From positions 226,190 to 290,189 of the forward strand of contig NW_026042446.1 of the NCBI RefSeq assembly GCF_023856365.1: a stretch of 64,000 bases of DNA, read 5' to 3'. The notes under the pieces were generated by a model. It was not told the DNA's origin. It made no database searches and saw nothing but the letters and a program-made list of their open reading frames with translations. Below, one piece after another: positions 1 to 64,000 of the stretch; positions within the stretch are counted from its first letter, which is position 1; each line of letters starts with the position of its first letter. A program made the position numbers and the translations under genes. This DNA is from Brienomyrus brachyistius (Eukaryota > Chordata > Actinopteri > Osteoglossiformes > Mormyridae).

Positions 1-159
1 CGCGACAAATTCATCGTTCAGTTCTACCAGAATCACTCTTGGCACTCTGAAAGAGCGGATAAGCCACAAATCATCACTGGGAAGATAATCATTGTCATCT
101 CTAAATACTCCCTCCCTTAATATTTGGGCACAATGTCCTCTGCCATAATCAAGCTGCAT
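1..159 (-). pseudogene. HARBI1-like transposase relic (truncated by window start)
   Basis: On the minus strand, reading down from an ATG at 159, the frame contains VFRDDNDYLPSDDLWLI followed by an SFRVPR motif. This matches the pattern of the N-terminal region of fish PIF/Harbinger nucleases (FRD...DD..L..RFR.PR..L.EL). The rest of the relic lies beyond the window edge and is visible at the other unit boundaries. Family assignment is from memory of the motif pattern. It is too short and broken to be an active transposase. Confidence 0.65.
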
Positions 160-179
160 GTTATGGATTTTTACACTGA

Positions 180-380
180 TGGTTCACACTCTTCCCCAAT
201 CAGGAACCGTGGGTTGACAGATTGATCCGCGCTGCAGTGAACGCCCAGACCACCGCTTATAATGCTGGTCTCAACACTGGACTTTCTACTACGGCGCTGT
301 GGAGAGCATCCCGACTCAGAACATTACTTCCTGATTTGGGAATAGCTGTGTTCAGGATCGAAAAGCCTGCAATTATTTAA
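180..380 (+). pseudogene. LINE-like retrotransposon relic
   Basis: A plus-strand frame of about 66 codons without a start runs to a TAA at 378-380. It contains FPNQEPWVD followed by a LIRAAV..QTTAYNAGL segment. This resembles the FPNQKPW(V/I) segment with a following ARTAAYNSG-like stretch that lies between the endonuclease and reverse transcriptase domains in fish non-LTR elements. No RT catalytic motif is present and the similarity fades after about codon 45. The match is from recalled family patterns, so the family name is tentative. It directly follows the HARBI1-like relic on the opposite strand. Confidence 0.5.
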
Positions 381-1108
381 ATCTGATTTTAGGAAAACTT
401 GTCATGGTATAAAAAGCACACCACCAAATGCATGAAATCTGAGTAAAATGTTTACCTTTTTAACGCAACCATAATAGAGGGGTCTGCATTTGCATTTATC
501 ACAGTCCCTGTAACAATCTAACATCATAGCACCACAACTATTGCGGATTCAGCCAACGGTGGCAACGTTACTAGCCAGCAGCGTTGTGCAGGTTACTGGA
601 AATTACTAGTTATCAATTACTGCATATAAAAGTACTTATAACGAGGGTGGGACTGGGCCATGAGTCTGCGAGGAGTTTCGACGTGTGGTGGGTGCGGCAA
701 GGGGCAGCATCAGCGCATGCTCCCCCAGCTTGACCTAACCTGTATATATATATATATATATGTATATATATAGCCTGATAAAGGAAGATAAGAGTGGGCT
801 AAAGGTTGCATATTGATCACTTTAACATCGCGCCAACATCGGGGGAATATGGAATCAAATGATCGGTGGCGATGTTTCTGCAACACAGAGATGTTTGCTG
901 ATGGGTTTTCAAGCATCGCGGAGATATAGTGCCAATGCATGTGTGCTCTCTGGCTAGTTATATTATTTCAGCGTTGCAGCCATGACAGTGCCAGACAATA
1001 CAACCGTCTAATTGTATCTGTCAGCGTACCTACAATATCACACATTCATCACGCCACGGTGAGGTCGGATGGCGTTACATCATAAACAGGAAATTAGGGG
1101 AACATGCT
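374..1108 (+). repeat. Internal direct repeat, block A
   Basis: Block A matches block B (2095-2664) from AATCTGAT through GGGAACATGCT with scattered differences. It carries 161 extra bases (about 696-856) that B lacks, including a TA tract. Both blocks contain GGTATAAAAAGCACACC, a TATA-box-like string, near the 5' end. The two blocks are clearly older duplicates than the array copies, since they differ at many positions while array copies are nearly identical. They could be remnant terminal repeats of an element, but no primer-binding site or terminal-repeat ends are convincing. Confidence 0.9.
742..772. repeat. TA dinucleotide tract
   Basis: Two TA runs separated by one TG step lie inside the extra 161 bases of block A. 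Their length varies between units and accounts for a good part of the unit length differences, as expected for a slippage-prone microsatellite. Confidence 0.95.
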
Positions 1109-2094
1109 AACACTGATATCTCTTCAAGCCATCATTAGTGGCTCCCTCATCTGGCCTCAGAAGTGGTTGCATCCCAGAGCCACCTGCTGGTCTTGGTGGC
1201 ACTTCAGTGTTTGCCTGTAGAGGAGATGCTCAGTGGCAGTGATGGTGGGAGTCCCAGATGAGACAAGATGAGCACAGAGCTGTCCAGCCCATTGTTGCCA
1301 AAGGTCACATTCTACCAGAATGCCCTGACACTAACTTCCAAACATCCCACGGACCCCAGCTATCCCCTGTAGGGAAACTGAATAAGAAGCCTTTACCCTG
1401 GGCAGAAAATGCATTGTTTGTACAGTACGTCTTAGTGACAGAGTACCAATTTCAGAGGGCATTTTGTTGAAAAACATGCAGTGAAATATCTAATAACGAT
1501 ATCGGAACATTCAAACACAGCATACAATACAGTTTGCAAATGTAAACAGTTTTATTTAAAAGGACAGTTTAATTTCAGAGCCAATGGCCGTGTGACCAAA
1601 AACATTTGAATCATTATTATTCTCTTAGTAAAATGAAAAGCAGAAAACATTCCTGGAGCCTTCAATTTAGCGTGCACAGTGCCCTCTACAGGATTCTGTC
1701 GAAACAGCATCCCCGTCAGCCTCGTTCGCAGAACGTAGGAGTTCTTTTCCCAGCGTACCCTTTTCTTTATAAATCCCAAAATCTCCTTACAAATGTAAGT
1801 ATGAATGTTTGTCATCTTTTTCGGTCACACGAAGCCTTTATAAATGAGATTCCCCCATTAATGCGTTTACATGGCTATGCTCTGTAACTGCGCCATTAAA
1901 AACACATGAAAACATCTTAATTGCGTCAAGGCACGTAAACGTAGTCACATGACAAAAGATAACTTCGTGACTTAGCAAAGTGCAGGTTCTTCGTTTCCTC
2001 TGTGTGGACCATAGAGCTGTGTATCCGAGTCTGACGACCCGCCACGTTTTAAGATACAGAGAATACACGTCAATATGCTGCTATATTTTGGAAT
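1109..2094. other. Spacer between blocks A and B; no recognised gene
   Basis: Short open frames occur on both strands, the longest being 93 codons on plus (1606-1887) and 87 on minus (1552-1815). These two overlap each other, and neither resembles a family I know. A minus-strand AATAAA lies at 1552-1557, overlapping the stop of the minus frame, so a minus-strand 3' end is possible but unsupported. The same stretch recurs in every unit, with one T to C in unit 5 (near 42675) and several indels in unit 7. Confidence 0.6.
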
Positions 2095-2664
2095 TTTTTT
2101 AATCTGATCTCAGGAAAACTTGTCAAGGTATAAAAAGCACACCGCCATGAAATCTGAGTACAAATGTTTGCTTTTTTTTTTTTTAACGCAACCATAATAG
2201 AGGGGTCTGCATTTATCACAGTCCCTGTAACAATCTAACATCATAGCACCATAACTACTGCGGATTCAGCCAACGGCGGCAACGTCACTAGTCAGCAGTG
2301 TTGTGCAGGTTACTGGAAATTACTACTCATCAATTACCGCATATAAATGTACTTTTAATACGGGTGGGATTGGACCATGTGTCTGCCAGGAGTTTCGACG
2401 TGTGGTGGGTGCAAATGGTCGGTGGCGATGTTTCTGCAACACAGAGATGTTTGCTGATGGGTTTTCAAGCATCGCGGAGACATAGTGCCAATGCATGTGT
2501 GCTCTCTGGCTAGTTATATTATTTCAGTGTTGCAGCTATGACAGTGCCAGACAATACAACCGTCTAATTGTATCTATCAGCGTACCTACAATACCACCCA
2601 TTCATTGCGCCATGGTGAGGTCGGGTGGCGTTACATCATAAACGGGAAATTAAGGGAACATGCT
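2095..2664 (+). repeat. Internal direct repeat, block B
   Basis: Shorter partner of block A. It contains a poly-T run (2172-2184, 13 T) that varies in length from unit to unit and lies downstream of the TATAAAAAG string. The 161-base segment of A is absent at the junction GGTGC/AAATGGTCGG. Confidence 0.9.
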
Positions 2665-3636
2665 GCCTTTATCCATTAATATTTTCACGCAAGACAAAGG
2701 TAAAGAGTGCATTTAAATTTCAGCACCTTCCGTGTTTTTTAATGGCAATTAGTTACATTACTCCTTACAGACAAGAGTAGTGGGATTATAGTAACGCCTT
2801 ACTACCAACACTGCTAGGCTTGCTAATGCTAACGTTAGCAGTACAGCCTTATGCTACTTCCTCTCGCAAGATAAGATAGCGTTACTGTCACTGTGCAAAT
2901 ACAATGAGATGTCTTTGGAGCAAGGCTGTCGACGCCATGTTAAGGATAAAAGTACAAGTAAAATACAATATAAAATCAAAGAAACATACACCAACAGTAA
3001 AGAAGAACAAGGATGCGTAAAATACTGGTACCGGAAGCAAATAAACCAATAAAACACAGTCAGAGGAACACTGGAGAGTTCGGAGCAGCTGCGAATGTGC
3101 CGCCATCATTGTTCAGAATTCTTCACTTTGCGTTGCTACAGTGGAAGAGTGAAATGGCTGAAGATGGATTACAGAATTTTCCAAGTGTGCTAAACATTCA
3201 GTTGTAAATAAAAACCAGTGTGAGATAAGAACGTCTCCTCGCCATTTCCTTCTATTCTGATTGAATGGGTCGCTTAACGATCGCTGTGAATTCTGGGAGT
3301 TTGTGGAACGTCACGTCTGCAGCTCTCGCGTTACTTGCTGCCAGGAAGGAATTCTATTTAAATACTTCAATACATTTTATTTATAACATTTTCTGTTTTT
3401 AGGCGTGTCTTCTAAATTTACGGTGCTTCTATTATCTTTCCGCGCTTTTGTCAATATATATCGTGTGTCTGGTCATTTGATTAAAGTGCTTGAAGACTTT
3501 GCCGCGCGCTGACACTAATCGACCACCATATCTTAGCAACCGCATCATAACAATTCTAATTCCGTTTCGAGTTTTGATTCAAACATTCAAAGCAGCTCAG
3601 ATTTGCACTTTCCCAGCAAAAGACAAGACGCGAAAG
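2665..3636. other. Spacer and possible promoter region upstream of candidate exon 1
   Basis: No convincing gene. A perfect 14-base palindrome, TGCTAACGTTAGCA, lies at 2827-2840. A short plus-strand frame ending at 3207 is immediately followed by an overlapping AATAAA (3207-3212), which could be an old 3' end. The stretch from about 3240 to 3636 has relatively more CpG (for example AACGTCACGTCTGCAG and GCCGCGCGCTG) and precedes the best start-codon context, so promoter or 5' UTR function is possible. Unit-diagnostic substitutions lie at 3301 and 3504. Confidence 0.45.
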
Positions 3637-4033
3637 ATGTCTGCCTTCATCTACCTGCGGAGAATCGACTGGCTCCTGCCAAATGACGCCGTCAGTGTCC
3701 GGATTGCTCCGGAAGACATCCCCGGTTCAGTCAGCCATGGTAAGAACGGCAAAATGATGCCTAGAATATCTCAGCACTCGAAGAATGAAAGTCAGAACAG
3801 GCTTGGCTGGTCTTGTTGAATCTTGCAGTCTGTGATAACTATCTTATTTTGGAACTACGTGTCTTAGGATACTAAATAATAAAATGGTTCACCTTTAGCC
3901 CAACGGTGATTTGTTACCATGAAGCAGTAAAAATACGGGGCTCTTTTCAGCATGTCTGCTGTACTGCACAATGAAATCCGTAAAATCTGTGGCTGTGATG
4001 TGTTTGAACATAACAGGAAAGCGACGTCAAATG
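3637..4033 (+). CDS. Candidate 5' exons of the array gene (exon 1 3637-3739, exon 2 3951-4033)
   Basis: Exon 1 begins at an ATG in a good context (GCGAAAGATGT) and encodes 34 residues starting MSAFIYLRRIDWLLPNDAVS. It ends in phase 1 at CATG|GTAAGAA, a strong splice donor. The next acceptor, CTCTTTTCAG|CATG at 3941-3950, opens an 83-base exon ending AAATG|GTAAGGT. Joining them keeps the frame open through 28 more codons. Unit 2 differs in exon 1 by one change that leaves an Arg codon synonymous, which fits a coding role but is a single event. I do not recognise the encoded sequence. The link to the 320-codon frame 3.7 kb downstream is inferred from strand and order only. A second frame of exon 2 (28 codons from ATG at 3952) is also open, so the frame is not settled. 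Confidence 0.42.
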
Positions 4034-5486
4034 GTAAGGTAACAGGTGAACATGTCCCACATTGGCAAAAGCCAGCCAACGGGAGTAACCCCCCTCCTTC
4101 TGGGGGTGTGCCTAAATTCTCGTCTGAACGCGCTCATTTATTCACTTGCAGGGTGTTGCCATGAGATGGCGCTTTCTTTACAAAAACACATTTTAGTTGT
4201 GGTCACAAGTTCATACACAAGTACAACAAGTATCAACGAGAATCTTTTGGTAGCCATTAGCAAGCTTCTGGCATAATTGATACTTTAAAGTAAACTGAAG
4301 CTACAGCCAAAGTTTTTACAACACCGGAGACAAACAGGGCTAGGTACTTGGATAGCGAGCATGCCGGTACATACTAATCCAGCGCTATGATGTCATACAG
4401 TAACGAGACAGGAACTGTTTTGAAGCTTGGCATCCTGATCAGGAGTGACAATTTGTTGTTCTAATATTCATTTATTGTTTTGCATTGTTCCTGGAATAAT
4501 GTGATTGCACATTTTATTCATCGACGTTTAATCCGTTGCATGTTATAAACTGTAAAAAGGCTAGTATTGTGTCTTTTCTTACAGTTGTTTTCAATTGCTA
4601 AGACAGGGTAGTATCTAGGGTAGCATCTCCACATGCCTGATCCATCCTTGGCATTGCTCTGGAGGAATATCCTGGCATCCAACATTCATTGTTTGATCTT
4701 GTGTCAACTGACATAATTTCTTTGTATTATGTGTTTTTTACAATCTGTTTTAGAAAGGGTCTTGATAGTGATTTAGCAAAATGACATGTTTCAGTTTTGA
4801 CTGTCTTATTAGCAGTTTTTGGGTCAGTATGTAGGTATGTGCAAATTGGCCTCTGAAAATGTAATATTGTGAGTGAGACAGGAATCCATGGCTTTTGAAG
4901 CATTTAGTCATTGATTGCATTTTGTATGAAAGCAAAGTGAAATGCTAAACAGTTTAGCCCACATAAGTAAATGTTGTGGTGACTGCATGAAGAGTTTTGA
5001 GAAAGCAACTTCAGTATTGCAGTATTTGTCTTAGCAAATGAAAAAAAAACCTGTAAAATTCACACTGCCTTTCCAAACTGATTGGTGTGAAGAGCAGTGA
5101 CAGACAGTCCAGACTGATGGGCCATTGACAGTATGCAAAGGTCTGGTGACTCCAAAGTCACTTCAAAGTTGTAACACTTTAGTAATCAAACCTCATACAA
5201 TTTTCTGAATGTCTCATTCACCTTTGTGTAGCCATCCCCTATGTCTGTAAGCTTCAGAACTCAAGCTTAGGCTAGAAATATTTATAATGTGATTTTTTAC
5301 AATTTGTCAGCACCACTGAAAATAAGTTTTTGAAAAGTGTATGTTTAAAGTAGATTTTAACAAAAAAAAAAAAATATATATAGAATAATCACATTCTAAA
5401 TGTTGACAGATTATTGGTGCTGAGTTTGTGCTGAATAAAAGCATTCGTAGCACTTTGGGATAAATGTTTTTTAGACAGGTGAAATA
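4034..5486. other. Intron-like stretch, no recognised gene
   Basis: AT-rich sequence with many stops in all frames. It holds acceptor-like sites (CATTTATTCACTTGCAG ending at 4151, GTGTCTTTTCTTACAG ending at 4583) that could lead into further small exons, but none gives a persuasive coding exon. Also present are a C5/G5 hairpin near 4089-4107, a 12-base palindrome TCCTGATCAGGA near 4434, and an A-run followed by TA repeats near 5361-5381 that varies between units. Confidence 0.5.
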
Positions 5487-6463
5487 TTTAACAGTTTTTC
5501 TGAATTGCTGAAATATTAGAAATCGTTTTGGGAACAAAACTGCCGATTGCCAAAAGTCATTTATTGAATCAGTTACTTCTTTGGCAAAACTTTAAACCAT
5601 GGTCACCTAGTTAGACACAATTTGCAGATCTCAGTCATCCTTTTTGCAAAACTCAAAACACATTCCCATTCATCAAAACACATTTTGCGCTATGGTGAAC
5701 TTTGATGCAAAATAGAAAACACAGGCCACAGAAGTGAAGCGCAGCCAGCACACAGTAGTCATTTGAACACAATGACTCAAAACTATTCACACACATTTCT
5801 AAACATTTGAGGAAGCCAAAGAGTGACTAGAACATAGAATACGTGCCATAGAAGGATAGGAGTTGCATTTTGAAGTCAAGGTACAAATGGGTCACACAGA
5901 GGATTCTTTCTGCATCACTCAACAAGGGATAGCATCGCTAGACCCAGCCCTGAGACATGGCGATGAGGCAGGATGAATATTCTTCTGTGACTCTGGCTTG
6001 GCAGTTGCACAACATTTTACTGTAATATGCCTCTCGTTTGTTTACTTTTTGGCGTTGTTCTTTACAGTCACTTTTCTGGAGTACTGAGTATGGCAAACGT
6101 TACATATTAATTATCAGTCATATGGTAGACGACCATAATTTTTTTTAACTATTATTATAGTCTTACGGTTTCTCATTTACATGTCAACAACAGTTTTGAT
6201 TGGTACTGTTTTCATTTTTTGCTGTAGAGTGCTATGACTGTTCAGTAGTGTACCTTTACCCAACTGACGAGATGCATGGTCTGAAAACAGTGTTTGCTTT
6301 TGAGCAAAGATAATATAGTTTTGAGAAGATTGTTTGATTTTGCAAGACAAGCGTAAGGTTTTGTGAGTTTAGCTTGAATTTTAGAGTTTGTGCTTAGTGG
6401 TTTGATTACAGGAGATGAGAGATTTTAGGACATGTGTTTTAGCAATTCAGAAAAACAGTAAAA
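5487..6463. mobile_element. MITE-like element with terminal inverted repeats
   Basis: The left end (5487-5513) reads TTTAACAGTTTTTCTGAATT and on to GCTGAAA. The right end (6438-6463) reads TTTAGCAATTCAGAAAAACA and on to GTAAAA. As reverse complements they match at about 24 of 27 positions. The interior has no long open frame, so this would be a non-autonomous DNA transposon of about 977 bases. Superfamily and target-site duplication are unclear; a TTAA-like site on the left is not matched cleanly on the right. Confidence 0.55.
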
Positions 6464-6667
6464 TGTCAAGGCCTGTCAGACTACTTTGAAAGTGGGTGAG
6501 AGGCCTCAGACTCCATAGGGTTACAGTAAATACTTGTTATGCTATGTTTCTTTTATGTTCCTCTTTTTGTGTCTGGTACTATGACAAAAAATCCCAGTCT
6601 ATCTATCTAGTGCTACTTCATTATCCCATTGTCTTTCTGCAATGTTCTCATGTACAGTACTGTCAGC

Positions 6668-6781
6668 AAAACAGCATGATACTACCACCACCATGCTTGA
6701 CCGTTGGTTCAGTGTTCTTAGGTTAAGAAAACAACCTCACCTTGATCCCCTGCAAACATATCTCTTTTCATTGTGGCCAAG
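6668..6781 (-). pseudogene. Tc1-like transposase relic
   Basis: On the minus strand one frame reads NTEPTVKHGGGSIMLFC and then stops. Upstream of it (higher coordinates) another frame reads GHNEKRYVCRG. Both are hallmark strings of fish Tc1 transposases (FGHNEKRYVWR... and ...TVKHGGGSIMLWGCF), which lie close together before the second catalytic Asp. Stops and frameshifts separate them and the rest of the gene is missing, so this is a short dead fragment. The plus-strand open frames over this stretch are antisense shadows of it, at least up to about 6800. Confidence 0.78.
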
Positions 6782-7072
6782 CAGAGAAGTTTATGACAGA
6801 TTCACACGTCATCGTGACTGCCCCCAGCCCTCCTGTGAATGTGCAGCCATCAGCAGCCTTTCAGACTGTTAGCCAGAAGGAAAGACAGAACAGACTAAGG
6901 AATGCGTCCGTTTTATTCAAGCACAGTACAGAACCATAAGCATTTTTATTTTTCATTTTCCACTCTGTCCACCTTTATTCTCCACAAGCAACCGTATTAC
7001 TTTGTTTAGGCCTGTAATTATTGTATTGCACACATCTTGGGTCCGCCTTATCTCCAAAAGGTGAAGTAAAAT

Positions 7073-7218
7073 ACAAAATTCTAATTTCATCAATAAACTG
7101 ACTAAAACACATTTTGCTAGTTTTAGGCCATCTTTGCCTCACAACAGAAACAATTTCTTACATTTCTCAGGCCATCTATTGCAGTGTAGTCAGTTTATTA
7201 ATGAAATTGGAATTTTGT
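7073..7218. repeat. 31-base inverted repeat with 84-base spacer
   Basis: Arm 7073-7103 (ACAAAATTCTAATTTCATCA and on to AATAAACTGACT) and arm 7188-7218 are reverse complements at 29 of 31 positions. The spacer contains AGGCCATCT twice. Transcribed, this could fold into a long hairpin. It may be a small foldback transposon or the remains of one; it lies just upstream of a candidate 24-base exon. Confidence 0.85.
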
Positions 7219-7264
7219 CTAAATATAAGAAAATTATACTTCCTTAGATTTTCATTTTCTGCAG

Positions 7265-7721
7265 TGGAGTTACAATACCTGATTTCAGGTAAGTCATTTC
7301 TGCTTCCATAATCACTGCTCTCCCTGGTGGATGGATAAATCATTGCAAGTACTTTACACACATCATCGTGGGGGATCTCATTATAGCCAAGGTGCCACCC
7401 AAGGCCCAGCAGGGACCTGTCATGGACCAGCCAAGGACCAGCCAAGGCCCCATCATGGAAACAGGGGAAAATTCAAGCGGCTACATCTGTAAATTTGGTG
7501 CACATGAACCTTTCCAGTGTTGTTTTTCGCTGTTGTTCTGCATATCAGGGAATCTGTGCACTACATGGTGTGTTTTTATAGGTCAAGTTCCCCTGCTGAA
7601 ATGCAGGCAGCCCAATTCAAGACCAGCGCATAAGTCTCCCAAGCATGTGTTTCCTATATCCGATAAGATGGCAGAATTTCTCTCAATGTGCAATACTGAC
7701 TGCCAAGTGCGATATCTGTGA
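7265..7721 (+). other. Candidate 24-base exon (7265-7288) and open segment (7293-7721)
   Basis: A pyrimidine-rich acceptor (GATTTTCATTTTCTGCAG) is followed 24 bases later by CAG|GTAAGT, a consensus donor, which would make an in-frame micro-exon of 8 codons with two of three frames open. After it, one frame stays open from 7293 to a TGA at 7719-7721. It includes a Gln/Pro-rich part (VPPKAQQGPVMDQP, residues near 7383) and QVPLLKCRQPNSRPAHK. It has no ATG at its 5' end, so it could only be internal exon sequence. Possible internal acceptors include TTTTTATAG|GTCAAG near 7581. No family is recognised. Matching positions are +10330, +20656, +30984, +41314 and +51646 in units 2-6; in unit 6 one T is missing near 59221, which breaks the frame. 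Confidence 0.3.
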
Positions 7722-7773
7722 TGTATGTGATGTACTTTTCTTGTAGAGTGACATAAGGATTCACTTTAATTAA

Positions 7774-8736
7774 ATGTGTGTCCCCTATCTTTATAATCCA
7801 AAAGGACGAACCAGTACCAGCAGTGGAGGCCGTCAGAAGAAATGCCGCACTGGGCCACCGGCACCCAGCTCCCAAACCATATCTGGATCTGCTCCCATCC
7901 CGTTGGCGACCAGCAGGGCTCAGCAGGGCAGAAGACGCCGTAGAAATACGGCGGGAGGCCGGTCAGGCCGTAGAAAGAAGTGTAAAAAACAGAAGGGGCC
8001 ATTTACAAAAAATTTGCAGAACCTGCTAACCTTCAGTAACCCCTTTGATTCAATCCAGGTGGGTGACAAGATCCCGTGTGTGGATCTCACCCAGAGTGAC
8101 GACGAGGTTGCTACCATCCTGTGTCGCACTCCATCAATGTCAGAGCCTGAGCCCTGCTCACCAGCCTTCTCCTCCACTTCCTTCTTATTTCCATCACCAG
8201 TCCCATCCTCTTTTGCCTCCTCTCCATCCCCATCTTTTTTTACAGACTCTCCTCCTCCGTCACCATGTGTAGTCTCACCTGTAAGCCCATCTCCACACCC
8301 ATCTTCACCTCCAGCCACAGTTCATCCCACCCCTCTGTATCAGGTTCCAGCGCAAGCTGCAGCCCCCTCATCTGAGCTGGTTACGGGTCCGACACCCCTA
8401 CTTATTTCCCCTTCTGTTGTTTTTGAGAAAATGGAAAGATTCAATAAGATGCATAACTTTTATCTATGCAACTATTCTAAAATGACCTATGATGCCAAGT
8501 GCCTTGCTCATTACTGGTGTAATCAGTTTTGGAATGATTTTCAACATGCAGTTTACATCTGCAAGCAGGGGAAGAATCAAAATTCAGAGAATCACTACTC
8601 ATATGGTGATAATGAGGGTGCCCAAGCTGAGCTGATATTTGATGATGAGGCGCTGGATCAGCTAAGTGCCATCCCCGGGGTCCTGGAGATGGCTGTGGAG
8701 ATGGGCTATCAGTGTGATGTAAATAGTTTTTCATAG
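7774..8736 (+). CDS. Uncharacterised basic, Pro/Ser-rich protein, 320 codons (probable terminal exon)
   Basis: This is the longest open frame in the unit. Residues 52-73 hold two basic clusters (GRRRRRN and GRRKKCKKQK), a likely nuclear localisation signal. Residues 102-111 read CVDLTQSDDE, which fits a SUMO-interaction motif (hydrophobic-D-L-T followed by Ser and acidic residues). Residues 118-215 are Pro/Ser-rich and probably disordered. Residues 216-320 form a compact-looking end with aromatic residues, Cys 232/243/249/263, His 246/258 and an acidic tail. I recognise no family, so no molecular function is given; a nuclear role is inferred. The ATG at 7774 lies in an AT-rich, intron-like context and the AG sites at 7804 and 7823 look like acceptors, so the true coding part may start near residue 11-18 of a spliced product. 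The stop is TAG at 8734-8736, with an AATAAA about 290 bases later. The protein is identical in units 1-5. Confidence 0.6.
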   Translation: MCVPYLYNPKGRTSTSSGGRQKKCRTGPPAPSSQTISGSAPIPLATSRAQQGRRRRRNTAGGRSGRRKKCKKQKGPFTKNLQNLLTFSNPFDSIQVGDKIPCVDLTQSDDEVATILCRTPSMSEPEPCSPAFSSTSFLFPSPVPSSFASSPSPSFFTDSPPPSPCVVSPVSPSPHPSSPPATVHPTPLYQVPAQAAAPSSELVTGPTPLLISPSVVFEKMERFNKMHNFYLCNYSKMTYDAKCLAHYWCNQFWNDFQHAVYICKQGKNQNSENHYSYGDNEGAQAELIFDDEALDQLSAIPGVLEMAVEMGYQCDVNSFS

Positions 8737-8775
8737 AACCTGTAAATAATTAGGTGAGACATCTCACAAGTACTT

Positions 8776-8998
8776 AGGATAATATAAGATTAAGGTAGTT
8801 TAACCTTATCTTAACTAATCCTAAGATTGTATGATATAAGATTACATAGGATAAGACTAAGAATAGGTTAAGATAAGGTTGTATATAATGTAAGATAACA
8901 TAGAATAAGATAAGACTAAGATAGGATAAGTTAAGATTAAAGTAAGATAGTATGACATAAGATTACATAGGATAAGATAAGAATAGGTTAAGATAAGA
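8776..8998 (+). repeat. ATAAG-rich degenerate minisatellite in the presumed 3' UTR
   Basis: Runs of ATAAGA, AGGATAAG and GGTTAAGATAAG follow each other with little other sequence. A 22-base segment (8799-8820) stands in the opposite sense (AACCTTATCTTAAC) and can pair with GTTAAGATAAGG about 60 bases downstream. The tract lies between the stop codon and the AATAAA, so it would be transcribed with the 320-codon frame. Confidence 0.9.
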
Positions 8999-9022
8999 CT
9001 TCTTATTCTTGTTTTTCTATTA

Positions 9023-9028
9023 AATAAA
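9023..9028 (+). terminator. Polyadenylation signal AATAAA
   Basis: A canonical AATAAA lies 287 bases after the TAG of the 320-codon frame, and a GT-rich stretch (GGTTTGTGTCTGTGAGG) follows within about 20-40 bases, as expected for cleavage and polyadenylation. No transcript evidence is available. Confidence 0.55.
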
Positions 9029-10491: not shown

Positions 10492-10511
10492 GTTATGGAT
10501 TTTTACACTGA

Positions 10512-10712
10512 TGGTTCACACTCTTCCCCAATCAGGAACCGTGGGTTGACAGATTGATCCGCGCTGCAGTGAACGCCCAGACCACCGCTTATAATGCTGG
10601 TCTCAACACTGGACTTTCTACTACGGCGCTGTGGAGAGCATCCCGACTCAGAACATTACTTCCTGATTTGGGAATAGCTGTGTTCAGGATCGAAAAGCCT
10701 GCAATTATTTAA
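10512..10712 (+). pseudogene. LINE-like relic, unit 2
   Basis: Same 66-codon open stretch with the FPNQEPWVD motif. No difference from unit 1 was seen. Confidence 0.48.
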
Positions 10713-20821: not shown

Positions 20822-20841
20822 GTTATGGATTTTTACACTGA

Positions 20842-51805: not shown

Positions 51806-51825
51806 GTTATGGATTTTTACACTGA

Positions 51826-52388: not shown

Positions 52389-52420
<32 letters not shown>

Positions 52421-53742: not shown

Positions 53743-54311
53743 TTTTTTAATCTGATCTCAGGAAAACTTGTCAAGGTATAAAAAGCACACCGCCATGAAA
53801 TCTGAGTACAAATGTTTGCTTTTTTTTTTTTAACGCAACCATAATAGAGGGGTCTGCATTTATCACAGTCCCTGTAACAATCTAACATCATAGCACCATA
53901 ACTACTGCGGATTCAGCCAACGGCGGCAACGTCACTAGTCAGCAGTGTTGTGCAGGTTACTGGAAATTACTACTCATCAATTACCGCATATAAATGTACT
54001 TTTAATACGGGTGGGATTGGACCATGTGTCTGCCAGGAGTTTCGACGTGTGGTGGGTGCAAATGGTCGGTGGCGATGTTTCTGCAACACAGAGATGTTTG
54101 CTGATGGGTTTTCAAGCATCGCGGAGACATAGTGCCAATGCATGTGTGCTCTCTGGCTAGTTATATTATTTCAGTGTTGCAGCTATGACAGTGCCAGACA
54201 ATACAACCGTCTAATTGTATCTATCAGCGTACCTACAATACCACCCATTCATTGCGCCATGGTGAGGTCGGGTGGCGTTACATCATAAACGGGAAATTAA
54301 GGGAACATGCT
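53743..54311 (+). repeat. Block B, unit 6
   Basis: The poly-T run is one base shorter than in unit 1. Confidence 0.88.
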
Positions 54312-55283
54312 GCCTTTATCCATTAATATTTTCACGCAAGACAAAGGTAAAGAGTGCATTTAAATTTCAGCACCTTCCGTGTTTTTTAATGGCAATTAGT
54401 TACATTACTCCTTACAGACAAGAGTAGTGGGATTATAGTAACGCCTTACTACCAACACTGCTAGGCTTGCTAATGCTAACGTTAGCAGTACAGCCTTATG
54501 CTACTTCCTCTCGCAAGATAAGATAGCGTTACTGTCACTGTGCAAATACAATGAGATGTCTTTGGAGCAAGGCTGTCGACGCCATGTTAAGGATAAAAGT
54601 ACAAGTAAAATACAATATAAAATCAAAGAAACATACACCAACAGTAAAGAAGAACAAGGATGCGTAAAATACTGGTACCGGAAGCAAATAAACCAATAAA
54701 ACACAGTCAGAGGAACACTGGAGAGTTCGGAGCAGCTGCGAATGTGCCGCCATCATTGTTCAGAATTCTTCACTTTGCGTTGCTACAGTGGAAGAGTGAA
54801 ATGGCTGAAGATGGATTACAGAATTTTCCAAGTGTGCTAAACATTCAGTTGTAAATAAAAACCAGTGTGAGATAAGAACGTCTCCTCGCCATTTCCTTCT
54901 ATTCTGATTGAATGGGTCGCTTAACGATCGCTGTGAATTCTGGGAGTCTGTGGAACGTCACGTCTGCAGCTCTCGCGTTACTTGCTGCCAGGAAGGAATT
55001 CTATTTAAATACTTCAATACATTTTATTTATAACATTTTCTGTTTTTAGGCGTGTCTTCTAAATTTACGGTGCTTCTATTATCTTTCCGCGCTTTTGTCA
55101 ATATATATCGTGTGTCTGGTCATTTGATTAAAGTGCTTGAAGACTTTGCCACGCGCTGACACTAATCGACCACCATATCTTAGCAACCGCATCATAACAA
55201 TTCTAATTCCGTTTCGAGTTTTGATTCAAACATTCAAAGCAGCTCAGATTTGCACTTTCCCAGCAAAAGACAAGACGCGAAAG

Positions 55284-55680
55284 ATGTCTGCCTTCATCTA
55301 CCTGCGGAGAATCGACTGGCTCCTGCCAAATGACGCCGTCAGTGTCCGGATTGCTCCGGAAGACATCCCCGGTTCAGTCAGCCATGGTAAGAACGGCAAA
55401 ATGATGCCTAGAATATCTCAGCACTCGAAGAATGAAAGTCAGAACAGGCTTGGCTGGTCTTGTTGAATCTTGCAGTCTGTGATAACTATCTTATTTTGGA
55501 ACTACGTGTCTTAGGATACTAAATAATAAAATGGTTCACCTTTAGCCCAACGGTGATTTGTTACCATGAAGCAGTAAAAATACGGGGCTCTTTTCAGCAT
55601 GTCTGCTGTACTGCACAATGAAATCCGTAAAATCTGTGGCTGTGATGTGTTTGAACATAACAGGAAAGCGACGTCAAATG
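55284..55680 (+). CDS. Candidate 5' exons, unit 6
   Basis: Exon 1 55284-55386 and exon 2 55598-55680, unchanged. This part of unit 6 precedes the indel-rich segment. Confidence 0.4.
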
Positions 55681-57132
55681 GTAAGGTAACAGGTGAACAT
55701 GTCCCACATTGGCAAAAGCCAGCCAACGGGAGTAACCCCCCTCCTTCTGGGGGTGTGCCTAAATTCTCGTCTGAACGCGCTCATTTATTCACTTGCAGGG
55801 TGTTGCCATGAGATGGCGCTTTCTTTACAAAAACACATTTTAGTTGTGGTCACAAGTTCATACACAAGTACAACAAGTATCAACGAGAATCTTTTGGTAG
55901 CCATTAGCAAGCTTCTGGCATAATTGATACTTTAAAGTAAACTGAAGCTACAGCCAAAGTTTTTACAACACCGGAGACAAACAGGGCTAGGTACTTGGAT
56001 AGCGAGCATGCCGGTACATACTAATCCAGCGCTATGATGTCATACAGTAACGAGACAGGAACTGTTTTGAAGCTTGGCATCCTGATCAGGAGTGACAATT
56101 TGTTGTTCTAATATTCATTTATTGTTTTGCATTGTTCCTGGAATAATGTGATTGCACATTTTATTCATCGACGTTTAATCCGTTGCATGTTATAAACTGT
56201 AAAAAGGCTAGTATTGTGTCTTTTCTTACAGTTGTTTTCAATTGCTAAGACAGGGTAGTATCTAGGGTAGCATCTCCACATGCCTGATCCATCCTTGGCA
56301 TTGCTCTGGAGGAATATCCTGGCATCCAACATTCATTGTTTGATCTTGTGTCAACTGACATAATTTCTTTGTATTATGTGTTTTTTACAATCTGTTTTAG
56401 AAAGGGTCTTGATAGTGATTTAGCAAAATGACATGTTTCAGTTTTGACTGTCTTATTAGCAGTTTTTGGGTCAGTATGTAGGTATGTGCAAATTGGCCTC
56501 TGAAAATGTAATATTGTGAGTGAGACAGGAATCCATGGCTTTTGAAGCATTTAGTCATTGATTGCATTTTGTATGAAAGCAAAGTGAAATGCTAAACAGT
56601 TTAGCCCACATAAGTAAATGTTGTGGTGACTGCATGAAGAGTTTTGAGAAAGCAACTTCAGTATTGCAGTATTTGTCTTAGCAAATGAAAAAAAAACCTG
56701 TAAAATTCACACTGCCTTTCCAAACTGATTGGTGTGAAGAGCAGTGACAGACAGTCCAGACTGATGGGCCATTGACAGTATGCAAAGGTCTGGTGACTCC
56801 AAAGTCACTTCAAAGTTGTAACACTTTAGTAATCAAACCTCATACAATTTTCTGAATGTCTCATTCACCTTTGTGTAGCCATCCCCTATGTCTGTAAGCT
56901 TCAGAACTCAAGCTTAGGCTAGAAATATTTATAATGTGATTTTTTACAATTTGTCAGCACCACTGAAAATAAGTTTTTGAAAAGTGTATGTTTAAAGTAG
57001 ATTTTAACAAAAAAAAAAAATATATATAGAATAATCACATTCTAAATGTTGACAGATTATTGGTGCTGAGTTTGTGCTGAATAAAAGCATTCGTAGCACT
57101 TTGGGATAAATGTTTTTTAGACAGGTGAAATA

Positions 57133-58109
57133 TTTAACAGTTTTTCTGAATTGCTGAAATATTAGAAATCGTTTTGGGAACAAAACTGCCGATTGCCAAA
57201 AGTCATTTATTGAATCAGTTACTTCTTTGGCAAAACTTTAAACCATGGTCACCTAGTTAGACACAATTTGCAGATCTCAGTCATCCTTTTTGCAAAACTC
57301 AAAACACATTCCCATTCATCAAAACACATTTTGCGCTATGGTGAACTTTGATGCAAAATAGAAAACACAGGCCACAGAAGTTAAGCGCAGCCAGCACACA
57401 GTAGTCATTTGAACACAATGACTCAAAACTATTCACACACATTTCTAAACATTTGAGGAAGCCAAAGAGTGACTAGAACATAGAATACGTGCCATAGAAG
57501 GATAGGAGTTGCATTTTGAAGTCAAGGTACAAATGGGTCACACAGAGGATTCTTTCTGCATCACTCAACAAGGGATAGCATCGCTAGACCCAGCCCTGAG
57601 ACATGGCGATGAGGCAGGATGAATATTCTTCTGTGACTCTGGCTTGGCAGTTGCACAACATTTTACTGTAATATGCCTCTCGTTTGTTTACTTTTTGGCG
57701 TTGTTCTTTACAGTCACTTTTCTGGAGTACTGAGTATGGCAAACGTTACATATTAATTATCAGTCATATGGTAGACGACCATAATTTTTTTTAACTATTA
57801 TTATAGTCTTACGGTTTCTCATTTACATGTCAACAACAGTTTTGATTGGTACTGTTTTCATTTTTTGCTGTAGAGTGCTATGACTGTTCAGTAGTGTACC
57901 TTTACCCAACTGACGAGATGCATGGTCTGAAAACAGTGTTTGCTTTTGAGCAAAGATAATATAGTTTTGAGAAGATTGTTTGATTTTGCAAGACAAGCGT
58001 AAGGTTTTGTGAGTTTAGCTTGAATTTTAGAGTTTGTGCTTAGTGGTTTGATTACAGGAGATGAGAGATTTTAGGACATGTGTTTTAGCAATTCAGAAAA
58101 ACAGTAAAA
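57133..58109. mobile_element. MITE-like element, unit 6
   Basis: Same element, with T at the position matching 5736. Confidence 0.53.
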
Positions 58110-58313
58110 TGTCAAGGCCTGTCAGACTACTTTGAAAGTGGGTGAGAGGCCTCAGACTCCATAGGGTTACAGTAAATACTTGTTATGCTATGTTTCTTTT
58201 ATGTTCCTCTTTTTGTGTCTGGTACTATGACAAAAAATCCCAGTCTATCTATCTAGTGCTACTTCATTATCCCATTGTCTTTCTGCAATGTTCTCATGTA
58301 CAGTACTGTCAGC

Positions 58314-58427
58314 AAAACAGCATGATACTACCACCACCATGCTTGACCGTTGGTTCAGTGTTCTTAGGTTAAGAAAACAACCTCACCTTGATCCCCTGCA
58401 AACATATCTCTTTTCATTGTGGCCAAG
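58314..58427 (-). pseudogene. Tc1-like transposase relic, unit 6
   Basis: Same fragment, unchanged. Confidence 0.76.
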
Positions 58428-58718
58428 CAGAGAAGTTTATGACAGATTCACACGTCATCGTGACTGCCCCCAGCCCTCCTGTGAATGTGCAGCCATCAGC
58501 AGCCTTTCAGACTGTTAGCCAGAAGGAAAGACAGAACAGACTAAGGAATGCGTCCGTTTTATTCAAGCACAGTACAGAACCATAAGCATTTTTATTTTTC
58601 ATTTTCCACTCTGTCCACCTTTATTCTCCACAAGCAACCGTATTACTTTGTTTAGGCCTGTAATTATTGTATTGCACACATCTTGGGTCCGCCTTATCTC
58701 CAAAAGGTGAAGTAAAAT

Positions 58719-58864
58719 ACAAAATTCTAATTTCATCAATAAACTGACTAAAACACATTTTGCTAGTTTTAGGCCATCTTTGCCTCACAACAGAAACAAT
58801 TTCTTACATTTCTCAGGCCATCTATTGCAGTGTAGTCAGTTTATTAATGAAATTGGAATTTTGT
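58719..58864. repeat. Inverted repeat, unit 6
   Basis: Both arms and the spacer match unit 1. Confidence 0.84.
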
Positions 58865-59418
58865 CTAAATATAAGAAAATTATACTTCCTTAGATTTTCA
58901 TTTTCTGCAGTGGAGTTACAATACCTGATTTCAGGTAAGTCATTTCTGCTTCCATAATCACTGCTCTCCCTGGTGGATGGATAAATCATTGCAAGTACTT
59001 TACACACATCATCGTGGGGGATCTCATTATAGCCAAGGTGCCACCCAAGGCCCAGCAGGGACCTGTCATGGACCAGCCAAGGACCAGCCAAGGCCCCATC
59101 ATGGAAACAGGGGAAAATTCAAGCGGCTACATCTGTAAATTTGGTGCACATGAACCTTTCCAGTGTTGTTTTTCGCTGTTGTTCTGCATATCAGGGAATC
59201 TGTGCACTACATGGTGTGTTTTATAGGTCAAGTTCCCCTGCTGAAATGCAGGCAGCCCAATTCAAGACCAGCGCATAAGTCTCCCAAGCATGTGTTTCCT
59301 ATATCCGATAAGATGGCAGAATTTCTCTCAATGTGCAATACTGACTGCCAAGTGCGATATCTGTGATGTATGTGATGTACTTTTCTTGTAGAGTGACATA
59401 AGGATTCACTTTAATTAA

Positions 59419-60380
59419 ATGTGTGTCCCCTATCTTTATAATCCAAAAGGACGAACCAGTACCAGCAGTGGAGGCCGTCAGAAGAAATGCCGCACTGGGC
59501 CACCGGCACCCATCTCCCAAACCATATCTGATCTGCTCCCATCCCGTTGGCGACCAGCAGGGCTCAGCAGGGCAGAAGACGCCGTAGAAATACGGCGGGA
59601 GGCCGGTCAGGCCGTAGAAAGAAGTGTAAAAAACAGAAGGGGCCATTTACAAAAAATTTGCAGAACCTGCTAACCTTCAGTAACCCCTTTGATTCAATCC
59701 AGGTGGGTGACAAGATCCCGTGTGTGGATCTCACCCAGAGTGACGACGAGGTTGCTACCATCCTGTGTCGCACTCCATCAATGTCAGAGCCTGAGCCCTG
59801 CTCACCAGCCTTCTCCTCCACTTCCTTCTTATTTCCATCACCAGTCCCATCCTCTTTTGCCTCCTCTCCATCCCCATCTTTTTTTACAGACTCTCCTCCT
59901 CCGTCACCATGTGTAGTCTCACCTGTAAGCCCATCTCCACACCCATCTTCACCTCCAGCCACAGTTCATCCCACCCCTCTGTATCAGGTTCCAGCGCAAG
60001 CTGCAGCCCCCTCATCTGAGCTGGTTACGGGTCCGACACCCCTACTTATTTCCCCCTTCTGTTGTTTTTGAGAAAATGGAAAGATTCAATAAGATGCATA
60101 ACTTTAATCTATGCAACTATTCTAAAATGACCTATGATGCCAAGTGCCTTGCTCATTACTGGTGTAATCAGTTTTGGAATGATTTTCAACATGCAGTTTA
60201 CATCTGCAAGCAGGGGAAGAATCAAAATTCAGAGAATCACTACTCATATGGTGATAATGAGGGTGCCCAAGCTGAGCTGATATTTGATGATGTAGGCGCT
60301 GGATCAGCTAAGTGCCATCCCCGGGGTCCTGGAGATGGCTGTGGAGATGGGCTATCAGTGTGATGTAAATAGTTTTTCAT
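59419..60380 (+). pseudogene. 320-codon array protein, unit 6 (broken by indels)
   Basis: The frame is disrupted by a missing G near 59529, an extra C near 60052 and an extra T near 60293, with substitutions near 59513 and 60106. It splits into pieces at 59419-59673, 59547-60071 and 60076-60363. Either this copy is decayed or the sequence here is unpolished; the even spread of similar single-base indels to the window end, including through noncoding parts, favours the second. Confidence 0.6.
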
Positions 60381-60421
60381 AGAACCTGTAAATAATTAGG
60401 TGAGACATCTCACAAGTACTT

Positions 60422-60674
60422 AGGATATATAAAGATTAAGGTAGTTTAACCTTATCTTAACTAATCCTAAGATTGTATGATATAAGATTACATAGGATAA
60501 GACTAAGAATAAGTTAAGATAAGGTTGTATATAATGTAAGATAACATAGAATAAGATAAGACTAAGATAGGATAAGTTAAGATTAAAGTAAGATAGTATG
60601 ACATAAGATTACATAGGATAAGATAAGAATAGGTTAAGATAAGACTTCTTATTCTTGTTTTTCTATTAAATAAA
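60422..60674 (+). repeat. ATAAG tract and AATAAA, unit 6
   Basis: The tract shares AAGAATAAGTTAAG with unit 5 and begins with a private rearranged GGATATATAAAG. AATAAA lies at 60669-60674. Confidence 0.86.
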
Positions 60675-61857
60675 TATGGATTATTTTGCGTATGGTTTGT
60701 GTCTGTGAGGTTATTTAAAATATTGTGAAGTTTGACACAAAATTTGATTAGTTTAAATAATGATTGGTTAAACTGATGTACATGTAGAGAATTGTAGTGG
60801 TCTTGCTATTGAATTAAAGGACTCTTCAGATCTCAAGTGCAGTGCAAAAAGTATAGAGGGGTAATTCATTAAATGCTGCACGCACAGGACATTTTTTTGG
60901 TGTTAAATCCAAATTGCATGACCATTCTACTGCAAATACAGGCCTTTAAGTTTAAAGGTGCCATGGAACTCTACTTTGAAAGCTTGTGAAACAGCAAAAA
61001 AGTTGTTGTTTCTTTGTTTTCTGCACATGCGTCCACCAACCGGAAGGAGCCAGAGAGTGGCATTAAGAGTCTGCAGCTGTGTATTATTGCAACAGTAGAC
61101 TAAGCTAATTTCCTAGATCCTTAAATTTGCAAGCACTCATTTGAAGAGACAATGAACCTTTACCATATGTAAACTTAATCAACTTAAAACACATAAAAGA
61201 CATTCTCCTTCACCTTCTCCCTTATACTACAAGCCTTCCATTTCAGTTTAGCTGATTTTTAACACAGCTGACTTCTCCACTTGTAATGAATCCTGCATAT
61301 GTGACAAACCACGATACGCCACTGCCTGGTCCATGCCTGTGAAGTTAACTAGAATGTCACTAGCAGGCTGGCAAATTAATCCACAAGTTGTAGAGTACAG
61401 CACTGCTGCTTGCTAATTGCTTTATTTTTCCCGCCTATAATGACATTCAGTGAGGAATATTTGATAGCGTACTTTCCTGCATACTTTGTCATTTGCACCA
61501 GGCACCAACGCAGCTTCTCCCCTTGGTTTACTAGTCATGGGAAAACAATGTTCGCGGTGAGCAAGCTGGGCCCAACAGGGTGTGTCACGTGACTTACTTG
61601 CATCTTGCCACAGCAGTGATGGGCTATATTAAAATGTCTGTAAGCCTAGTGATAAAGGTCCTTAAAATGACAGAAAGCAAACTAATAAATAAAACTACAC
61701 ATTTTTGTTAATACTTTCAAATGCGTCAGACACATACAGTAAGATCTCTCAAAGTATTTTCTGACATTTTTTTTTCCCGCCCACTAAAATACAAATCAGA
61801 AAATGCTCAGAAGCAATTACACATGTATTCTAAATACGTTGAACTACATCCACACTA

Positions 61858-62134
61858 GGGAAACTTAAAATATTATCTTGACAGTTGGTTAAAACCAGGC
61901 ACAACTTGAGGAATAATGGAACTCAAAATGGGCTGGATATCCCTGATCTGTCTGCCAGTTCCTTTCGGTATGTTCCGCGACAAATTCATCGTTCAGTTCT
62001 ACCAGAATCACTCTTGGCACTCTGAAAGAGCGGATAAGCCACAAATCATCACTGGGAAGATAATCATTGTCATCTCTAAATACTCCCTCCCTTATTATTT
62101 GGGCACAATGTCCTCTGCCATAATCAAGCTGCAT
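61858..62134 (-). pseudogene. HARBI1-like transposase relic, unit 6/7 boundary
   Basis: Same relic, with one G missing near 61936 and a substitution near 62094. The missing base changes the downstream reading frame, so the open stretch is longer here (to about 61889), but it does not restore the family frame. Confidence 0.7.
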
Positions 62135-62154
62135 GTTATGGATTTTTACACTGA

Positions 62155-62357
62155 TGGTTCACACTCTTCCCCAATCAGGAACCGTGGGTTGACAGATTGA
62201 TCCGCGCTGCAGTGAACGCCCAGACCACCGCTTATAATGCTGGTCTCAAAACACTGGACTTTCTACTACGGCGCTGTGGAGAGCATCCCGACTCAGAACA
62301 TTACTTCCTGATTTGGGAATAGCTGTGTTCAGGATCGAAAAGCCTGCAATTATTTAA
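62155..62357 (+). pseudogene. LINE-like relic, unit 7 (frameshifted)
   Basis: Two extra A bases near 62248 break the frame that is open in all other copies. Confidence 0.45.
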
Positions 62358-63082
62358 ATCTGATTTTAGGAAAACTTGTCATGGTATAAAAAGCACACCA
62401 CCAAATGCATGAAATCTGAGTAAAATGTTTACCTTTTTAACGCAACCATAATAGAGGGGTCTGCATTTGCATTTATCACAGTCCCTGTAACAATCTAACA
62501 TCATAGCACCACAACTATTGCGGATTCAGCCAACGGTGGCAACGTTACTAGCCAGCAGCGTTGTGCAGGTTACTGGAAATTACTAGTTATCAATTACTGC
62601 ATATAAAAGTACTTATAACGAGGGTGGGACTGGGCCATGAGTCTGCGAGGAGTTTCGACGTGTGGTGGGTGCGGCAAGGGGCAGCATCAGCGCATGCTCC
62701 CCCGCTTGACCTAACCTGTATATATATATATATATGTATATATATAGCCTGATAAAGGAAGATAAGAGTGGGCTAAAGGTTGCATATTGATCACTTTAAC
62801 ATCGCGCCAACATCGGGGGAATATGGAATCAAATGATCGGTGGCGATGTTTCTGCAACACAGAGATGTTTGCTGATGGGTTTCAAGCATCGCGGAGATAT
62901 AGTGCCAATGCATGTGTGCTCTCTGGCTAGTTATATTATTTCAGCGTTGCAGCCATGACAGTGCCAGACAATACAACCGTCTAATTGTATCTGTCAGCGT
63001 ACCTACAATATCACACATTCATCACGCCACGGTGAGGTCGGATGGCGTTACATCATAAACAGGAAATTAGGGGAACATGCTA
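62349..63082 (+). repeat. Block A, unit 7
   Basis: Single bases are missing near 62703 and 62880 relative to all other copies. Confidence 0.85.
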
Positions 63083-64000
63083 ACACTGATATCTCTTCAA
63101 GCCATCATTAGTGGCTCCCATCAACTGGCCTCAGAAGTGGTTGCATCCCAGAGCCACCTGCTGGTCTTGGTGGCACTTCAGTGTTTGCCTGTAGAGGAGA
63201 TGCTCAGTGGCAGTGATGGTGGGAGTCCCAGATGAGACAAGATGAGCACAGAGCTGTCCAGCCCATTGTTGCCAAAGGTCACATTCTACCAGAATGCCCT
63301 GACACTAACTTCCAAACATCCCACGGACCCCAGCTATCCCCTGTAGGGAAACTGAATAAGAAGCCTTACCCTGGGCAGAAAATGCATTGTTTGTACAGTA
63401 CGTCTTAGTGACAGAGTACCAATTTCAGAGGGCATTTTGTTGAAAAACATGCAGTGAAATATCTAATAACGATATCGGAACATTCAACACAGCATACAAT
63501 ACAGTTTGCAAATGTAAACAGTTTTATTTAAAAGGACAGTTTAATTTCAGAGCCAATGGCCGTGTGACCAAAAACATTTGAATCATTATTATTCTCTTAG
63601 TAAAATGAAAAGCAGAAAACATTCCTGGAGCCTTCAATTTAGCGTGCACAGTGCCCTCTAAGGATTCTGTCGAAACAGCATCCCCGTCAGCCTCGTTCGC
63701 AGAACGTAGGAGTTCTTTTCCCAGCGTACCCTTTTCTTTATAAATCCCAAAATCTCCTTACAAATGTAAGTATGAATGTTTGTCATCTTTTTCGGTCACA
63801 CGAAGCCTTTATAATGAGATTCCCCCATTAATGCGTTTACATGGCTATGCTCTGTAACTGCGCCATTAAAAACACATGAAAACATCTTAATTGCGTCAAG
63901 GCACGTAACGTAGTCACATGACAAAAGATAACTTCGTGACTTAGCAAAGTGCAGGTTCTTCGTTTCCTCTGTGTGGACCATAGAGCTGTGTATCCGAGTC

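Follow-up and report, generated by a model that had tools for sequence, protein, structure and literature searches.

The window that we analysed is a stretch of 64,000 nucleotides from the weakly electric fish Brienomyrus brachyistius (Mormyridae), and it is a head-to-tail array from one end to the other: six complete units of 10,326–10,332 bp, followed by 2,025 bp of a seventh. The first-pass annotation had described a repeated unit of 10.33 kb with no other sequence between copies, and both points are borne out: most shared 21-mers recur at a spacing of 10,321–10,334 bp, and in the unit alignment the units abut throughout. Its statement that the copies differ only by scattered bases needs some qualification. 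Pairs of full units in the window do differ at just 2–26 aligned sites (0.02–0.25%), but unit 4, alone among the six, has a 22-bp inversion, and the end of the window is rich in indels. The window's last base is also the last base of its contig (C166; 290,189 bp), and the final 4.8 kb holds 18 indel events against 13 in the remaining 59.2 kb, a density about 17-fold higher. Three of these indels shift the frame of the unit-6 ORF. Because the burst lies at the exact contig end, it probably reflects poor end sequence, frameshifts included, rather than decay.

As had been proposed, each unit carries one candidate gene. The predicted gene has two coding exons, bounded by GT/AG and about 4 kb apart, and a product of 344 amino acids (Table 1). 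Exon 2 is identical and open in units 1–5. On C11, the contig that holds the main array, 14 of the 15 copies within the left 200 kb are open over 303–314 amino acids, and the other copy is truncated. (Because the copies are near-identical, open frames alone are no proof of selection.) As for the dead transposons that the annotation placed in every unit, the longest stop-to-stop frame outside the gene has 142 amino acids. Besides the CpG stretches in Table 1, there are CpG-rich windows (1.07–1.17) at 1651–2100, away from exon 1, and CpG-free windows at 7051–7350 and 8701–9000. The ends of the unit may look Harbinger-like. The near identity of the units fits the earlier suggestion that amplification came after the putative transposon insertions had decayed.

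Table 1. Positions of units, exons and other features in the window
Feature	Position	Strand	Basis or remark
Unit 1, reference phase	1..10332	+	unit alignment
Unit 2	10333..20662	+	unit alignment
Unit 3	20663..30988	+	unit alignment
Unit 4	30989..41316	+	unit alignment
Unit 5	41317..51646	+	unit alignment
Unit 6	51647..61975	+	unit alignment
Unit 7, partial, cut by end of C166	61976..64000	+	unit alignment and contig end
Direct repeat D1, copy A (unequal-crossover substrate)	856..1108	+
Direct repeat D1, copy B	2412..2664	+
CpG-rich stretch, o/e 1.1–1.45	3151..3750	+	over presumed promoter and exon 1
Coding exon 1, unit 1	3637..3739	+	ends at GTAAGA donor; same exon-1 residues in P0008
Exon-1 homologues, units 2–6	13966–14068, 24293–24395, 34621–34723, 44951–45053, 55284–55386	+
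Intron stretch, CpG o/e zero	4651..5400	.	four overlapping 300-bp windows
Stretch without differences to third C11 edge unit	7465..8709	+	alignment
Tract where the first two C11 edge units show nearly all of their exon-2 differences	7756..8673	+	alignment
Coding exon 2 with stop, unit 1	7805..8736	+	acceptor giving frame of P0001 and P0008
Exon-2 homologues, units 2–6	18135–19066, 28461–29392, 38789–39720, 49119–50050, 59450–60382	+	last copy has three indels
22-bp inversion, unit 4 only among six units	39783..39804	.	unit comparison
Indel-rich contig end, probably sequencing error	59218..64000	.	indel list

Extent of the array in the assembly

A 44-mer from exon 1 has 240 exact matches across the assembly and none in the reversed control; this count is known from the assembly alone and mixes haplotypes, and the exact copy number may be wrong. 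The main array spans about 702 kb of C11, a chromosome-sized contig of 29,449,873 bp, and lies inside it at 25.47–26.18 Mb (25,473,309 to about 26,175,891). Both edges are assembled, with altered edge units and without any N in the stretches read. Another contig, C44, shares the left junction with C11 (99.88% identity over 6,000 bp), whereas its unit spacings then differ; both contigs come from one individual. Eight other contigs whose starts were read all begin inside a unit. Among the matches listed, four exon-2 marker copies are isolated from the array, on C11 at 19.9 and 22.75 Mb, and the remaining matches are on contigs that either open within a unit or share the left junction. Exact exon-2 markers are of two types (39 R-type and 220 Q-type), and the R places are interspersed. 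The units on other contigs are probably the second haplotype together with unresolved parts of the C11 array.

Exchange between units

The array had been called young or strongly homogenised, and C11 agrees with this, with traces of unequal crossover and of gene conversion. Some C11 units are longer or shorter by 1,556 bp and carry hybrid copies of the direct repeat D1, with the polarity that crossover predicts: in the two duplication units the middle D1 copy has the pattern BBAAAAAAAAAAA, against AAAAAAAAAAABB for the copy in the deletion unit. Of the 30 full-length D1 copies within the left 200 kb of that contig, 29 are pure A or pure B. Across 17 units the four-gamete test fails in 132 of 496 site pairs, a count that linked sites inflate; the sites show weak spatial autocorrelation (permutation p = 0.041).

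Exon 2 has a history of its own. For example, in one edge unit of C11, exon 2 differs at 52 of 927 sites and the adjoining intron at 16 of 3,512. Two inner units carry only the start of the tract that separates the window from the first two edge units (to 7903 and to 7857). Next to the stretch where the third edge unit has no differences, its intron differs mostly by 4–10%; on its 3' side the difference is 6% before alignment is lost. Also, the diverged exon tracts are nested. This pattern indicates that coding exon 2 moves between units as a conversion tract. In the part of the array that was read, inner units are more alike and left-edge units are more divergent.

So we conclude, with good confidence, that this is a gene-bearing macrosatellite of B. 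brachyistius whose 10.33-kb unit holds one two-exon gene of a mormyrid family. The unit has multiplied head to tail into the array of roughly 0.7 Mb on C11. Copy number and unit length shift by unequal homologous recombination within the internal direct repeats, as the hybrid junctions show, and presumably between whole units as well. In the part read, exchange and gene conversion keep the inner units alike. Judging from the tract ends, exon 2 may be exchanged as a separate tract because the subfamilies share that part.

The gene family and the nature of the array

Protein searches gave eleven relatives of the gene, namely ten mormyrid records and P0007 (from a 1,720-bp contig), and no named relatives outside the Mormyridae; one search gave ten of the eleven, another all of them and a further one three. 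These searches require shared 5-residue words, and the one that gave the eleven scored only 8,000 candidates, which leaves room for remote relatives to escape. The database relatives are predictions chosen for open frames. With E values up to 1 allowed, Pfam gave no family for the exon-2 ORF or for two other ORFs, and PDB gave weak matches only (best E 0.65 and 0.42) and no solved relative. The structure model of P0001 has a mean pLDDT of 45.3 and a pTM of 0.27; most of it is below pLDDT 50, and only residues from about 240 to 290 reach 64–74. We considered VDLTQSDDE as a SUMO-interacting motif and dropped the idea, as most relatives in which this stretch is present have E in place of V. The records seen of this family assign no function. 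It is possible, though we would lean slightly against it, that the product is a nuclear protein made in the germ line, with a basic region, a Ser/Pro-rich middle and a C-terminal helical pair, and that the array serves dosage or is a tolerated, self-expanding locus.

Is the gene just a passenger? The array might be a non-functional satellite that spreads by recombination alone, which is compatible with the recombination part of our explanation. We think this less likely than not, yet it is the most credible of the alternatives. Besides the truncated copy and the lack of a known domain, it is favoured by dN/dS, which is 0.050/0.085 inside the array and 0.232/0.285 to the second subfamily. These high values suggest that coding constraint is weak or that change is favoured. 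Comparing coding with intron divergence gives a mixed answer (p = 0.013 with 444 sites and p = 0.31 with the safest 192). On the other hand, relatives from two species, at 58–79% identity, align across exon 1 through exon 2, and 101 of the 104 copies in the second subfamily lack an internal stop.

Near-identical copies of that second subfamily, at least 104 in number, lie on 21 contigs in both orientations, and 23 of the 83 gaps between listed neighbours are 40–57 kb. The family is amplified twice, as the tandem macrosatellite on C11 and as these copies on at least 21 contigs; the latter contigs might belong to a B, sex-limited or germ-line-restricted chromosome, with the two subfamilies as rivals in a transmission conflict. 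We consider this unlikely. If true, it would account for the rapid change of the coding exon and for the high copy numbers.

We give slightly less weight still to the idea that C11 is an X, Y, Z or W chromosome that bears an ampliconic array for gonad dosage. Multicopy genes in tandem are characteristic of sex chromosomes, and many of them are expressed in the testis; the first-pass annotation also listed B chromosomes and heterochromatin as places where such arrays are known. However, both presumed haplotypes carry the array, and two papers on mormyrid cytogenetics, in the portions available, report no distinguishable sex chromosomes. One of the two papers, again in part, mentions that the single karyotyped specimen of B. 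brachyistius had an unpaired metacentric whose nature is unclear; this bears on the reading with a B, sex-limited or germ-line-restricted chromosome. Should both amplifications prove to belong to a sex chromosome or a B chromosome, an open question of mormyrid cytogenetics would become testable.

It is very improbable that the assembler, or failed purging of haplotypes, multiplied a few units. The eight contigs that begin inside a unit and the indel-rich end of the window might suggest it, and authors who used this genome suspect, in the part of their paper drawn on, that four kcna7a genes are two paralogs plus assembly error. But the assembled edges, the polarised crossover junctions, the nested exon tracts and the second left junction with its other spacings make such an origin hardly likely. 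An array of RNA genes (rRNA, snRNA or tRNA) can be dismissed, with no Rfam matches at the gathering score and no tRNAs in the window, and so can a phage origin, for which the search gave no match.

Of the known systems, human macrosatellites are the closest to the macrosatellite that we propose. PRR20 on 13q21, TAF11-like on 5p15, RS447 and D4Z4/DUX4 also consist of head-to-tail units several kb long, with an ORF per unit and one main locus (PMC3018141, in part). Macrosatellites vary in copy number among individuals or alleles, and some have been shown to be unstable in meiosis; what the fish array displays are products of past crossover. Four human arrays that were measured span 20–387 kb, with 3–154 units per allele, and TAF11-like, PRR20 and ZAV are testis-expressed (same source). 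In contrast, the fish array on C11 is longer, at about 702 kb, its marker occurs 240 times in the assembly, and its gene has a sizeable intron. None of the searches that we ran links the fish family to the human macrosatellite genes. In the titles and abstract openings searched, we found no account of the array in B. brachyistius, and LOC125751473 occurs in none of the papers searched; we drew on parts of PMC7449985, PMC8520028, PMC12188244, PMC9997568, PMC10029256 and PMC3018141.

This is a large array of near-identical fish protein genes, and its exchange events can be read base by base. A single locus, with its probable second haplotype, thereby offers a test of models of concerted evolution that involve crossover inside units, exon-limited conversion and differing edge units. 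Ampliconic families of sex chromosomes, such as TSPY and mouse Slx/Sly, are multicopy with nearly identical copies; the fish family resembles them in this, in being apparently lineage-restricted, and in having two separately amplified subfamilies, but its main array sits within a single contig of chromosome size. As in rDNA-type concerted evolution, the inner units are homogeneous, the left-edge units differ more, and both unequal crossover and conversion have left traces. Unlike rDNA-type arrays, the fish array is protein-coding, without an Rfam family in the window, and a diverged exon type persists inside it.

Array structure and extent

The array behaves like a human gene-bearing macrosatellite, with which it shares one defining feature, a unit of several kilobases repeated head to tail. 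In the window, shared 21-mers lie mostly 10,321-10,334 bp apart, and 659 21-mers are unique. Six full units, each 10,326-10,332 bp long, are followed by a seventh that is cut to 2,025 bp, with zero intervening sequence, which bears out the first-pass annotation of a head-to-tail array of more than six copies with no other sequence between them. Between any two full units there are 2 to 26 differing sites. Because the window's last base is also the last base of its contig, C166 (290,189 bp), the dense indels at the window's end (see table) and the disrupted unit-6 reading frame would be contig-end errors.

We searched the window's own assembly (985,274,225 bp in 1,384 contigs). A 44-mer from exon 1 has 240 exact matches (195 plus, 45 minus), and the reversed control has 0. 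Among the 100 matches listed, 57 are on C11, the main-array contig (25,479,507 to 26,169,371), 20 on C44, and 23 on C151. We examined 250 kb of C11 sequence (200 kb from the array's left end plus two stretches, of 30 and 20 kb, nearer its right end); interior stretches of 470 and 29 kb are represented by marker positions alone. On the left the array begins at 25,473,309, and the final matches on the right (26,175,248-26,175,891) fall inside a degraded unit. The left flank (C11 25,440,001-25,470,000) holds several elements with long open frames, some of them in series about 4.65 kb apart; we take the elements adjoining the left edge to be of Ty3/Gypsy type.

The left junction also occurs on C44 (2,533,434 bp), at 99.88% identity over 6,000 bp, and is followed by a different series of spacings. 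We take C44 to be the other haplotype of the C11 array, so the 240 matches are probably a mixture of haplotypes; less probably, C44 is a duplicated locus. All eight further contigs whose first 1,000 bp we compared (C44, C151, C166, C237, C250, C271, C656, and C812) start inside a unit.

Features of the array and of the second subfamily (exons in coordinates of unit 1, the inversion and contig end in those of the window)
Feature	Position	Description	Context
Coding exon 1	3637-3739	encodes MSAFIYLRRIDWLLPNDAVSVRIAPEDIPGSVSHG, last codon split by intron	followed by GTAAGA donor
Coding exon 2	7805-8736		preceded by AAAAG acceptor
22-bp perfect inversion	39783-39804	unit 4, sole carrier among six units	adjoins inverted repeat (I7)
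Indel-rich contig end	59218-64000	18 indel events in the final 4.8 kb vs 13 in the remaining 59.2 kb	copies here unfit for variant counts
P0009-type contigs	C28, C29, C31, C32, C34, C35, C37, C40, C43, C47, and 11 further		

The gene and its coding sequence

The two coding exons are separated by an intron of 4,065 bp. In the predicted product of 344 amino acids, residues 36-105 are basic (net charge +20), the middle part is 48% serine plus proline, and the C-terminal part is acidic. A structure model of the relative P0001 predicts two helices with moderate confidence in the C-terminal part and is poor elsewhere. The residues from exon 1 are those of another relative, P0008, and exon 2 matches P0001 at 100% identity over 94%. 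The exon-2 reading frame matches B. brachyistius LOC125751473 (C11, 29,449,873 bp) and LOC125729865 (C812, 57,601 bp), and no Pfam family matches it. The 11 protein relatives comprise six from B. brachyistius, four from Paramormyrops kingsleyae, and one from a short contig. Any functional role for the gene would be a guess. The CpG observed/expected ratio is 1.1-1.45 across the presumed promoter and exon 1; positions 1651-2100 are also CpG rich, and CpG is absent from four overlapping intron windows and from single windows elsewhere in the unit. This pattern would fit a promoter that escapes methylation in the germ line.

Between the window and edge unit 1 (the first unit at the array's left end on C11), dN is 0.050 and dS is 0.085. 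Against the second subfamily (P0009 type), over 148 codons, dN and dS are 0.232 and 0.285 (NG86) or 0.256 and 0.239 (YN00), and divergence in the adjoining intron is 0.154 (324 sites). Differences are more frequent in coding sequence (93/444 vs 45/324 in the intron, p = 0.013); in codons 1-64, the most safely aligned part, there is no excess over the intron (33/192, p = 0.31). Given these ratios and counts, either coding constraint may be weak or change may be favoured. Of the 15 exon-2 copies read on C11, 14 are open over 303-314 amino acids and one is cut at 228, which is little evidence of selection because the copies are nearly identical.

Exchange between units

Of 97 unit spacings on C11, C44, and C151, 61 are within 40 bp of 10,330, 8 are near 10,910, 4 are near 10,750, 2 are 1,556 bp longer, 1 is 1,556 bp shorter, and 21 have other values. 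The unit contains D1, a 253-bp direct repeat at 856 (copy A) and 2412 (copy B), which are 1,556 bp apart and differ at 13 diagnostic sites. Two longer C11 units (26.118 and 26.130 Mb) have an extra middle copy that reads BBAAAAAAAAAAA, and a shorter C151 unit has a single copy that reads AAAAAAAAAAABB. Crossover between copies A and B is expected to yield just such duplication and deletion products. The crossover points differ between them, so there were at least two events. Among 30 full-length D1 copies in the left 200 kb of the C11 array, 29 are wholly of A or wholly of B type. The remaining copy (25,584,113) is out of register, as is D1 in the window's indel-rich unit 7, probably because of a one-base indel.

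Across 17 units (11 from C11 and 6 from the window), 132 of 496 pairs of 32 informative sites fail the four-gamete test, a count that is inflated because many of the sites are linked. Neighbouring units are slightly more similar (rank correlation 0.277, permutation p = 0.041, same 17 units).

We also compared edge units with the window in 300-bp bins. Edge units 1 and 2 differ by 0-1.3% outside 7501-8700, save for the poorly aligning first 300 bp of unit 1, and by 3.7-8.7% in three exon-2 bins, with differences from 7756 to 8673; they also contain additional sequence, about 167 and 410 bp long. In edge unit 1, 52 of 927 exon-2 sites differ vs 16 of 3,512 aligned intron sites. The third edge unit has the reverse pattern: its first 3 kb is 0-1.4% from the window, its intron is mostly 4-10% away (one bin is at 1.2% and two barely align), 7465-8709 has zero differences, and the sequence downstream diverges and soon ceases to align. 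Two inner C11 units have the diverged exon type at its beginning alone, over 7756-7903 in one and 7756-7857 in the other.

A marker for the diverged exon 2 (R type) has 39 exact matches, 13 of them within the C11 array; the others are on C240 and C332 and on six contigs that start within a unit (C44, C151, C166, C237, C271, and C812). The marker for the common type (Q type) has 220, and among the 100 listed, four lie outside the array (C11, 19.9 and 22.75 Mb). DNA common to the window and the second subfamily, of which we compared 1 kb, runs from about 7490 into exon 2. Conversion may be confined by the extent of homology common to the subfamilies, because this onset is close to the left tract end.

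The four exact exon-2 marker copies outside the array on C11 form two isolated pairs, with members 11.7-11.8 kb apart (19,908,518 and 19,920,363; 22,752,005 and 22,763,662). On C166, at 15,092-50,254, the exon-2 marker recurs at three consecutive spacings of about 11.7 kb, an additional unit-length variant.

A second amplification

When P0009 was used as the query, 136 of 1,154 candidates were scored; at least 104 places have 96-100% identity to it and are spread over 21 contigs (C28 to C462). These are on both strands (51 plus, 53 minus), and 3 have an internal stop. Among the gaps between listed neighbours, 23 of 83 are 40-57 kb and most others are larger. A 1-kb probe of coding sequence and intron matched at least 40 places on 14 of these contigs (40 scored among 431 candidates), each at 99-100%. 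The published chromosome number is 2n = 48. Given the contigs' place in the size order (C28 is 4.68 Mb) vs this number, all 21 are likely unplaced. A bolder reading, which we consider quite improbable, has two competing amplifications linked to a chromosome that is unpaired or limited to one sex; its grounds are the second amplification and one old karyotype, cited in a later paper, in which a single B. brachyistius specimen had an unpaired metacentric of unclear nature. A more diverged set (about 60-92%) lies on C4 (8.86-10.40 Mb) and C49, and several of its members have stops.
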